Source of the DNA: Gemmatimonadales bacterium
Lineage (GTDB): Bacteria > Gemmatimonadota > Gemmatimonadetes > Gemmatimonadales > GWC2-71-9
NCBI GenBank assembly: GCA_019637315.1
Contig: JAHBVU010000007.1
Span: 124,001-188,000 of the forward strand
Direction of reading: 5' to 3'
DNA length: 64,000 nucleotides
Shown: piece by piece, positions 60,881-64,000 of the stretch
Layout of the letters: every line of letters starts with the position of its first letter
Position numbering within the stretch: position 1 is the first letter of the stretch
Program-made: the position numbers and the translations under genes
Notes under the pieces: generated by a model
What the model was told of the DNA's origin: nothing
Seen by the model: only the letters and a program-made list of their open reading frames with translations
Database searches by the model: none

Positions 60881-60901
60881 CCTGTAAGCGCCCTGTAAGC
60901 G
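60881..60901. repeat. Tandem direct repeat, 11-base period
   Basis: CCTGTAAGCG occurs at 60881-60890 and again at 60892-60901, an exact 10-base repeat with one base between. It lies between a stop codon and the genes for a hydrolase-like protein and a SARP-containing regulator. SARP regulators are known to bind direct repeats spaced by one helical turn, so it is a candidate operator. Confidence 0.6.
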
Positions 60902-60924
60902 GAGTGGACCACATTCAACGGACC

Positions 60925-61437
60925 ATGACCGACAATTCCAGAGAGCAGCCCACCCGGACCGGGAGCTTTCGCGCTGCCGTTCGGGCCGGTGCCAACCTGA
61001 CAGAGTACACCCGCGCGGGCGCCGGCCGACCGGTGCTCCTGTTGCTGCAGCGAGATGGCCAGGACACGGCATACCCCGCCGACATCCTGACCGCCATTTC
61101 CAGCCAATTCCGGGTCATTGCCCCGGAGCGGATTCCGAATGGCACTGAGTTCGGGCAATGGCTCAGCACCTTCCTCGACGGTCTGGGACTCGACGCGATC
61201 AGTATCGTGACCGAGGACGAGTTTGGTGTACCCGTATTCGGGTTTGCGCTGCTCGAGCCGGCCCGGGTCCGCCGGGTGGTCGTGCTGTCGAAAACAAGTC
61301 CGGAAACTGAGGCCGCCGGTGCTGCGGTGGCTAACCCGGGCGTGCCGGAAGGCTCGCATCCCTTCTTGATTATCCGGTACGGCGGCCCCGTCGACGAGAC
61401 CGTTCACAGGGTGGTCCAGTTCCTGGCCACGCCATAG
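60925..61437 (+). CDS. Alpha/beta-hydrolase-like protein lacking the nucleophile
   Basis: About 170 residues. The opening Y-T-R-A-G-A-G-R-P-V-L-L-L and F-R-V-I-A-P-E-R, then W-L-S-T-F-L-D-G-L-G-L-D-A-I-S-I-V follow the alpha/beta-hydrolase core. Where the G-x-S-x-G elbow should be, the sequence reads T-E-D-E-F-G-V-P-V-F-G. No serine nucleophile and no C-terminal catalytic His block are evident. It lies 26 bases upstream of the AfsR-like regulator, so it may sense or bind rather than catalyse. GTG at 60904 is an alternative start; neither has a clear ribosome site. Confidence 0.65.
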   Translation: MTDNSREQPTRTGSFRAAVRAGANLTEYTRAGAGRPVLLLLQRDGQDTAYPADILTAISSQFRVIAPERIPNGTEFGQWLSTFLDGLGLDAISIVTEDEFGVPVFGFALLEPARVRRVVVLSKTSPETEAAGAAVANPGVPEGSHPFLIIRYGGPVDETVHRVVQFLATP

Positions 61438-61463: not shown

Positions 61464-64000
61464 ATGTCATCCGACGCGGTCTCGCCTCCTCCCGTCGTCG
61501 CCGGTGTCCCGGCGGCCCTGACCCGGTTTGTCGGGCGGAGTCGTGAACTGGATGACCTCGAAAGCCTCCTGTCGGCACATCGCATGCTGACCCTGACGGG
61601 TGCCGGTGGAAGCGGCAAGACGCGACTTGCCCGCGAGGTCGTGTCCTGCAGCCGTCTGGGGTGGGAACGAATCGTCTGGATCGACTTGGCCCCCCTGACC
61701 GAGCCTGCCCTGATAGCTCCGCAACTTGCCAACGGCTTTGGGCTGGTCGAAACGGCAGGCCAGTCTCCCATTGACCTGATCCGCCGGGTGGTCGGCAACC
61801 AGCGCGTACTCCTCGTCCTGGACAACTGTGAGCACTTGGTCGACGCCGTTGCGCTGCTGGTCGAAAACCTGCTCAGCACCATTGCCTCACTCAGCATTCT
61901 GGCCACCAGCCGCGAGGCACTTGGCGTCCAGGGCGAAACCGCCTGGCTGGTTCCCCCTCTGGGCGACGTCGAGGCAGCACTGCTGTTCGTGGAGCGGGCC
62001 CGGAGCGTCTCGCCCGGGTTTGCGATGACCGAAGCCACCCGTCCCGCCGTCGAAACCATCTGCCGACGCCTCGACGGGATTCCCTTGGCAATCGAGCTCG
62101 CGGCCGCCCGGGTGCGTGTCATCACGCCCGACCAGATTGCCGAACGACTGTCGGACGCGCTGCACCTGCTCAACGTCGGGAGTCGAACGGCCCTGCCAAG
62201 ACAGCGCACCTTACGAGGCACCCTGGACTGGAGTTTTGCGCTGCTCAACGACTTCGAGCGCTGCCTGCTCGAGCGCCTCGCCGTGTTCCCGAGCACCTTT
62301 TCACTGGAGTCGGCCGAGGCGGTGGTCTCAGCCGACCAGGTCGCTGCGGAAGCGGTGTTGGACGGCATCTCGGCCCTGGTCGACAAATCGCTGATCGCGC
62401 TCGACCTGAACGGTACCGAGACTCGGTACCGCCTGCTGGAAACGGTTCGCCAGTACGGAGAGGAGCGACTGCGGGCGACCGGCGGATGGGAAGCGGCCCG
62501 CCACCGCCACGCCACCCACTTCCTGGCCAGCGCGGAAGCCGCGGCACCACATGTATTCGGCGGCGCGTCTGACCCGACCTGCATGGCGCGCCTGACGGCC
62601 GACACCCCAAATTATCGGGCCCTTGCCGAGTGGGCCGCCGAGCGCGGTGATCGCTGCGAATATGCACTTCGACTCGGCTGGGCCCTGCATTGGTTCTGGT
62701 TTGCCCGCGGATCGTTCGAGGAGGGGCGAAAGCAGCTGAGCGGCGCGTTGGCGGGAGCGGATGAGGTTGCAGTCGAATGGCGTGCCCGGGCCTCCCTTGC
62801 CCTGGCGCATATCGGCATCTGGCAGGGCTGGCGAAGCGGCATCACGCCGCTGATGGCTCAGGCCGCCGAGGGCCTGGAGACGACCGGCAGCCGCTTCGAC
62901 CTGGCCTATGCTCTTGTCGCATGGGGCGCGGGGTTCATCATCGAGGGCATCCCGACGGAGGCAGGGCCGCGCCTCGACCGAGCCGAGGCCATGCTGGCAT
63001 CGCAGCCGCCACATGTGATTCATTCCCTGCTGCATTTCTGGCGTGGGCTTGCTGCGCAACACCTCGGCGACCTGGCCGGCGCTCGCGCAGCCTTCATCGA
63101 GGCCGGCAACAACGGCCGGGTCATCGATCACAAGTCGGCGATTGCCTACCCCATGGCCATGCTCGGCAGCATCGACCTTGCCGAACGCAAGCCGCACGAC
63201 GCGATGCAACACTACGGCGACAGCCTGTCCATCCACGAGGCCATCGACGACCGCTGGGGCATGGTCCGAGGCCTCGAAGGAGTCGGCATCGCGGCGGGCA
63301 TGCTCGGCAACGGTCCCGATGCCGCCGTGCTCCTTGGTGCAGCGGAACAGCTGCGGGACCGGTATGCCATTCCCCACGCAACCGGGGAAGTGGCCGACTA
63401 CCAGGCTGCGGTAGCGCATTTGCATACCTCGCTCGGCGATGCCACCGCGGAGTTCTGGCAGCAGGGGCACAGTTTGGAACTCAGGGACGCGGTGCGACTC
63501 GCCCGCCGTGTCGCGAAGCTATCTGGCGACAGCGAGACGCCCCACCTCGCCGTTGCCGGCGCCACCGGCTCTGATCCGGAGGCCGCTCCCGATCTGGTGA
63601 TCCAAACGCTGGGCACGTTTCGCGCAGTCGTTCGCGGCCGCGAGGTCGCGCCGTCGGCGTGGGGATCGGCCCGGCCGCGCGAACTGCTGGCATTCCTCGC
63701 GCTGCACCCGGCCGGCGTCTCGCGAGAACAGGTTGGTGCTGCCATCTGGCCCGAGGCATCGGCGGCCCAGGTTCGCAACAATTTCCATGTGACGATGCAT
63801 CGGCTCCGCAAGGCGCTCGGTGAGAGCGACTGGATTGCGGTCGATCAGGACCGCTACCGCCTCGACCCGGCGCTCAGCGTGGCTTTCGACGCCAACGAGC
63901 TGGAATCCGGGGTCGCCAGCCTTTCATCCGAGCTCGACGACGGCAACGCCGCCCGCTTGGCCGAGGTGCTGAGCCGCTATCACGGTGAATTCCTCGCCAG
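61464..64000 (+). CDS. AfsR-like signal-transduction ATPase with C-terminal SARP-type region (partial)
   Basis: The gene runs off the right edge; 845 residues are visible. Residues 46-53 are the Walker A motif G-A-G-G-S-G-K-T, followed by V-L-L-V-L-D-N-C-E-H (Walker B) and A-T-S-R-E-A-L-G. This is the NB-ARC/STAND ATPase type. Residues about 395-690 are TPR-like helices. From about residue 709 a winged-helix region of the OmpR/SARP type appears (L-G-T-F, R-P-R-E-L-L-A-F-L-A-L-H-P-A-G-V-S-R-E-Q-V, N-N-F-H-V-T-M-H-R-L-R-K-A-L-G), with the start of a BTAD-like helix. In AfsR this module comes first; here it comes last. Confidence 0.85.
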   Translation, partial: MSSDAVSPPPVVAGVPAALTRFVGRSRELDDLESLLSAHRMLTLTGAGGSGKTRLAREVVSCSRLGWERIVWIDLAPLTEPALIAPQLANGFGLVETAGQSPIDLIRRVVGNQRVLLVLDNCEHLVDAVALLVENLLSTIASLSILATSREALGVQGETAWLVPPLGDVEAALLFVERARSVSPGFAMTEATRPAVETICRRLDGIPLAIELAAARVRVITPDQIAERLSDALHLLNVGSRTALPRQRTLRGTLDWSFALLNDFERCLLERLAVFPSTFSLESAEAVVSADQVAAEAVLDGISALVDKSLIALDLNGTETRYRLLETVRQYGEERLRATGGWEAARHRHATHFLASAEAAAPHVFGGASDPTCMARLTADTPNYRALAEWAAERGDRCEYALRLGWALHWFWFARGSFEEGRKQLSGALAGADEVAVEWRARASLALAHIGIWQGWRSGITPLMAQAAEGLETTGSRFDLAYALVAWGAGFIIEGIPTEAGPRLDRAEAMLASQPPHVIHSLLHFWRGLAAQHLGDLAGARAAFIEAGNNGRVIDHKSAIAYPMAMLGSIDLAERKPHDAMQHYGDSLSIHEAIDDRWGMVRGLEGVGIAAGMLGNGPDAAVLLGAAEQLRDRYAIPHATGEVADYQAAVAHLHTSLGDATAEFWQQGHSLELRDAVRLARRVAKLSGDSETPHLAVAGATGSDPEAAPDLVIQTLGTFRAVVRGREVAPSAWGSARPRELLAFLALHPAGVSREQVGAAIWPEASAAQVRNNFHVTMHRLRKALGESDWIAVDQDRYRLDPALSVAFDANELESGVASLSSELDDGNAARLAEVLSRYHGEFLA

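Follow-up and report, generated by a model that had tools for sequence, protein, structure and literature searches.

An 11-bp direct repeat conserved before a STAND–SARP operon in Gemmatimonadales and its probable role as a SARP promoter element

To our knowledge, nearly everything known about SARP promoters comes from the control of antibiotics in Streptomyces; a literature search of limited scope found no paper on SARP regulation in Gemmatimonadota, which is not proof of absence. The window analyzed here, a stretch of 64,000 nucleotides from a Gemmatimonadales bacterium, raises the question of whether a short direct repeat in front of a small operon could be the operator of the SARP-type regulator encoded by that operon. 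The original prediction described a tandem repeat with an 11-base step at this place, and the repeat is indeed exact: CCTGTAAGCG is found at positions 60881–60890 and 60892–60901 of the + strand. These are the only two copies of this 10-mer in the 3.91-Mb genome. The repeat occupies the gap between the stop codon of an acyltransferase gene (60879; Pfam Acyltransferase match) and the start codon of a small gene, which is followed by the gene of the BTAD/STAND regulator (Table 1).

Taken by itself, the window provides weak evidence. About 0.1 exact repeats of at least 10 bases are expected by chance at the 11-base step per 64 kb, and at least one appears in 9.5% of simulations of this length. 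Across all steps from 4 to 30, the window contains eight exact repeats of at least 10 bases. The window alone is thus compatible with a duplication without function, made by chance or by slippage, and it is the comparison with relatives and paralogs that turns the repeat into strong evidence.

Table 1. Features of the operon, matches to the box pattern in the same genome, and genes located at boxes.
Feature	Location	Strand	Basis or remark
Upstream half-site GTAAGC	60884..60889	+	Predicted -38 to -33; sequence; kept in orthologs and paralogs
Downstream half-site GTAAGC	60895..60900	+	Predicted -27 to -22; sequence; 11-bp step conserved
-10-like hexamer CACATT	60910..60915	+	9 bp past second GTAAGC
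Operon gene 1, 170-aa alpha/beta-hydrolase-like protein	60925..61437	+	ORF; homologs; predicted fold
STAND/NB-ARC ATPase, TPR-like part, C-terminal winged helix/BTAD	61464..64000	+	Pfam; profile against 8hvr
GTAAKCGNCCKGTAAK match 1	Window site		Own operon
GTAAKCGNCCKGTAAK match	C5:5903		Before paralogous operon encoding the same small protein
GTAAKCGNCCKGTAAK match	C5:9556		Directly after paralogous regulator, before exported-protein gene
GTAAKCGNCCKGTAAK match	C14:5337		Directly after paralogous regulator, before exported-protein gene
GTAAKCGNCCKGTAAK match	C30:15795		Before lipoprotein gene
Box gene	C5		Big_2 and RCC1-repeat lipoprotein
Box genes	C14		A lipoprotein; a Big_2 and PD40 lipoprotein
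Box gene	C30		Lipoprotein with InlB-like repeat
Box genes	G213, G212, G091		Divergent Big_2 lipoproteins
Box gene	G004		Cytochrome c-like protein
Box gene	G130		Lipoprotein-like gene, then cupredoxin gene

The original prediction was staked on conservation in relatives, and the box is kept across species, genera, and another family. When the flanks of orthologous regulator genes were read, GTAAGC-N5-GTAAGC was found directly before the orthologous operon of the small protein and the regulator in two other species of the genus, as well as in further genera and one more family of the order. The box reads GTAAGCGCTGGGTAAGC in G001 and G004 and GTAAGCGGTCGGTAAGC in G097, which belongs to another family; boxes are also present in G239, G152, G104, and G253, at the C5 paralog, and as a second copy in G001. 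Among sense-strand [GC]TAA pairs in the regulator flanks, 15 are at step 11 and 0–3 at each other step from 5 to 40, with the reservation that the boxes were partly picked by mutual similarity and that related genomes are not fully independent. A functionless repeat becomes extremely improbable given this conservation, since the linkers have diverged while the step and the distance to the -10 element have stayed fixed in other genera and the second family; the chance repeat was rejected on these grounds.

A search of 120 relatives for the exact 16-base pattern yielded two unrelated matches outside the own genome, which is the chance level. This can be explained by the linker, which is not conserved, and the apparent lack of conservation was rejected, as the flanks of the orthologous genes show the box. 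The order-wide strict pattern gave 16 matches versus 6 for the reversed control, so single order-wide matches elsewhere can be due to chance. No box was found in the flanks of several more distant SARP relatives with a hydrolase-like partner.

The same genome contains five exact matches to GTAAKCGNCCKGTAAK, while no site differs from it by a single mismatch; since these same sites had served to define the pattern, the count alone is partly circular. Four of the five are beside three paralogous SARP genes, and the remaining one precedes a lipoprotein gene. A weaker copy of the box (C14:6404) lies ahead of a second lipoprotein gene, and a single half-site match was noted at C4:108675. Judging by their predicted products, the genes at boxes have in common that they encode proteins exported to the periplasm or the cell surface.

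Back-to-back boxes were observed 5' of the SARP operon at three loci (L199, L200, and L104, the last being weak), where one box faces the operon and the other faces a divergent gene encoding a lipoprotein with the Big_2 domain. A possibly similar box from another phylum, GTAAGAGCCAGGTAAGAGGCGCTTGCTAGGGT, is located at L113:3400 in a Rubrobacter MAG (contig JADDPY010000051.1), just after the gene of a STAND protein with an N-terminal BTAD and a C-terminal LuxR-type HTH and ahead of a gene for a cupin-like protein; this match may be a chance one.

The position of the box relative to the putative promoter was analyzed in 25 box pairs near regulator genes, selected by half-site only. A -10-like hexamer with A as its second and T as its sixth base is found 9 bp past the second GTAAGC in 21 of the 25 pairs, while each of 21 other offsets shows such a hexamer in 0–3 of them. 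When the -10 element is placed at -12 to -7, the half-sites start at -38 and -27, which is the register of the AfsR afs box. AfsR-type promoters have repeats at an 11-bp step, the 3' repeat being 8 bp from the -10 element (PMC10936776). Their arrangement is matched by the predicted promoter here, with its 11-bp step and its 3' heptamer 8 bp from the -10. The first base of each half-site falls on -38 and -27, and, counted by position, R780 of the regulator corresponds to AfsR R92, the residue that touches T-38 in the AfsR complex, where a change of T-38 or T-27 abolishes binding (PMC10936776). The start codon lies only 6–9 nt past the -10 element in several orthologous operons, including that of the window, so the operon mRNA is probably leaderless; the ATG at 60925 is about 3 nt after the predicted transcription start.

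The SARP protein could also bind the box and repress its own operon, given that a site between -38 and -22 could block the polymerase. We consider this improbable: the box takes the place of the -35 element and has precisely the register of SARP activator sites, whereas a repressor would need no fixed distance to the -10.

At two loci (L108:4346-4409 and L069:9500-9587), more than two half-sites lie in tandem ahead of the promoter that serves the gene following the regulator, an arrangement known from some SARP sites.

The regulator has a full length of 959 aa, its last residues lying beyond the end of the window. A STAND/NB-ARC-type ATPase (residues 20-212) is followed by a TPR-like middle part and a SARP domain (about 706-952). 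Pfam detects BTAD at residues 814-948 (E 1.2e-17, above the cut-off) and Trans_reg_C at 736-787 (E 0.00023, below the cut-off). The last quarter of the family profile aligns to the AfsR SARP domain 8hvr over both domains (E 3.2e-14), and the profile also aligns to EmbR 2fez. With an OmpR-type winged helix followed by BTAD, the protein can be assigned by sequence to the SARP (AfsR/DnrI) family. The DNA-contact residues of the AfsR helix-turn-helix appear to be present: W74, R92, R94, and K95 correspond to W762, R780, R782, and K783, and the contact residue T88 is not kept, V776 taking its place. These residues were matched by counting positions from the conserved W, with no structural superposition. 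The Walker motifs are intact (TGAGGSGKT and LLVLDN), and most of their residues are invariant across the alignment.

The SARP domain of AfsR is N-terminal (PMC10936776), whereas here it is C-terminal, and the order typical of AfsR-type large SARPs (N-terminal SARP, NB-ARC, C-terminal TPR) is not found in the regulator. The original description as AfsR-like needs correction here: the domain order of this large SARP is reversed, and it is not an ordinary AfsR. The genome contains seven BTAD matches, and three of its genes (C5, C7, and C14) have this architecture and are paralogous. A scan of the named genomes by ATPase motifs returned mostly other STAND proteins. Five STAND relatives (L201, L203, L204, L206, and L210) carry a fused N-terminal protein-kinase-like part; the two C-termini that were read, those of L201 and L203, are without winged helix and BTAD. 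A [GC]TAA scan found no box beside these five genes.

Homologs of the small protein are located immediately 5' of the SARP gene at 14 further loci. The 170-aa protein itself has no Pfam match, and a very weak match to Abhydrolase_1 was found in two of 15 members (best E 0.044). Its AlphaFold2 model has an alpha/beta fold with a mean pLDDT of 81.7. From the gene order, one might guess that it is a sensor or modulator.

A phylogenetic tree was constructed for 26 SARP domains. One group, with the recognition helix ...FHVT(L/M)HRLR..., has the box in 13 of 13 rows, with GTAA in the downstream half-site; its support of 84/95 falls short of the starring threshold. Three other rows (...FHVALHHLR...) form a supported clade with half-sites of the TTAAGC/CTAAGC type, G091 among them only weakly. 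Rows without the box fall elsewhere on the tree, and the box labels are clustered, requiring 3 changes versus a shuffled mean of 10.3. L208, a distant row without the box, also has HRLR. The covariation of the helix and the half-site is a lead, not proof, as it is seen in few lineages.

The tree is also of importance for the main rival explanation, according to which the box is the operator of another winged-helix protein of the OmpR/PhoB type, for example, a two-component response regulator, while the SARP protein has its binding site elsewhere or uses this one jointly. With OmpR-type regulators, too, the -35 element is replaced by 11-bp direct repeats. Near-identical boxes are located between histidine kinase and outer-membrane efflux genes in five genomes that have no close homolog of the SARP regulator; this suggests that OmpR-type proteins can use such boxes and means that the protein behind a box cannot be told from the box alone. 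Recognition of the AfsR box at afsS by PhoP in Streptomyces also fits this explanation (PMC10972967). Nevertheless, the box accompanies SARP genes: it is found upstream of the operon, downstream of paralogous genes, and at divergently oriented neighbours. Whether it is present, and in which variant, agrees with the SARP-domain tree and the recognition helix. PhoB/PhoP-type response regulators have a related DNA-binding fold and 11-bp direct repeats that replace the -35; unlike them, the regulator has BTAD, and no receiver domain was found by Pfam scans in the operon's proteins, which leaves room for a response regulator encoded elsewhere. On the whole, an OmpR/PhoB-type protein is an unlikely owner of the box.

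These five genomes, all of one genus of the family (G122, G124, G126, G032, and G068; L212-L216), have a conserved GTAAGCmTCCTGTAAGGT...CTAGyTT-like box with the same geometry between the two genes, at about position 1501 (in L214, at about 803 on the reverse strand). An OmpR-type response regulator is its probable owner.

Taken as a whole, the repeat very probably is the operator of a SARP-activated promoter, where it would replace the -35 element and mediate positive autoregulation. Two SARP domains, those of the regulator encoded second in the operon or of a close paralog, would sit next to each other on the same face of the DNA, one at each GTAAGC half-site (-38 and -27). The bound domains would stand in for a -35 element by holding the sigma factor of RNA polymerase. 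Transcription from the CACATT -10 element would yield a near-leaderless mRNA encoding both the regulator and the small hydrolase-like protein, and the regulator would thereby raise the expression of its own operon. Paralogous regulators may use equivalent boxes to turn on neighbouring genes of exported lipoproteins, often carrying Ig-like domains of the Big_2 type. Until it is released by a signal and ATP, the SARP domain may be held inactive by the STAND ATPase and TPR-like parts, perhaps together with the hydrolase-like partner. Autoregulation, for which the repeat had been proposed as a candidate site, is well supported by conservation and SARP geometry, but it is not the only likely role, since the box is also present before neighbouring genes of exported proteins.

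The closest known system is AfsR of Streptomyces coelicolor, which likewise has winged-helix and BTAD, STAND ATPase, and TPR parts. At the afsS promoter, the afs box likewise consists of two 11-bp direct repeats over the -35, with the R92-contacted base at -38/-27, and the -10 element is poor in both cases (CACTGT at afsS, CACATT here). When the afs half-site CGTT(T/C)ATCG is compared position by position with those described here, T, A, C, and G coincide (PMC10936776, PMC10972967). Unlike AfsR, the present system has a co-encoded hydrolase-like partner, the half-site GTAAGC, and a box before the regulator's own operon; the genes at boxes encode exported lipoproteins here and are afsS or antibiotic genes for AfsR. 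A non-systematic look revealed no antibiotic gene cluster beside the boxes. Small SARPs (ActII-ORF4, DnrI, and RedD) likewise use 11-bp direct repeats with the 3' repeat 8 bp from the -10, but they are without the STAND and TPR parts.

These data point to SARP promoter geometry, kept to the bp, in an apparently distant group with another domain order and a dedicated partner. The likely targets differ as well: exported lipoproteins, a cupredoxin, and a cytochrome c-like protein. A broader reading, which we put forward tentatively, is that of a self-contained module outside Actinobacteria, combining a reversed STAND–SARP protein, a probably non-catalytic hydrolase-like sensor, an afs-box-like promoter, and a specificity set by one residue of the recognition helix. 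If this is true, the module would activate the operon that encodes it along with surface lipoproteins that carry Ig-like domains, and R versus H at the position of AfsR R92 would set the first base of the half-site. The analysis yields a predicted target list and a one-residue specificity prediction, and it opens the way to ask which signal such STAND switches sense.
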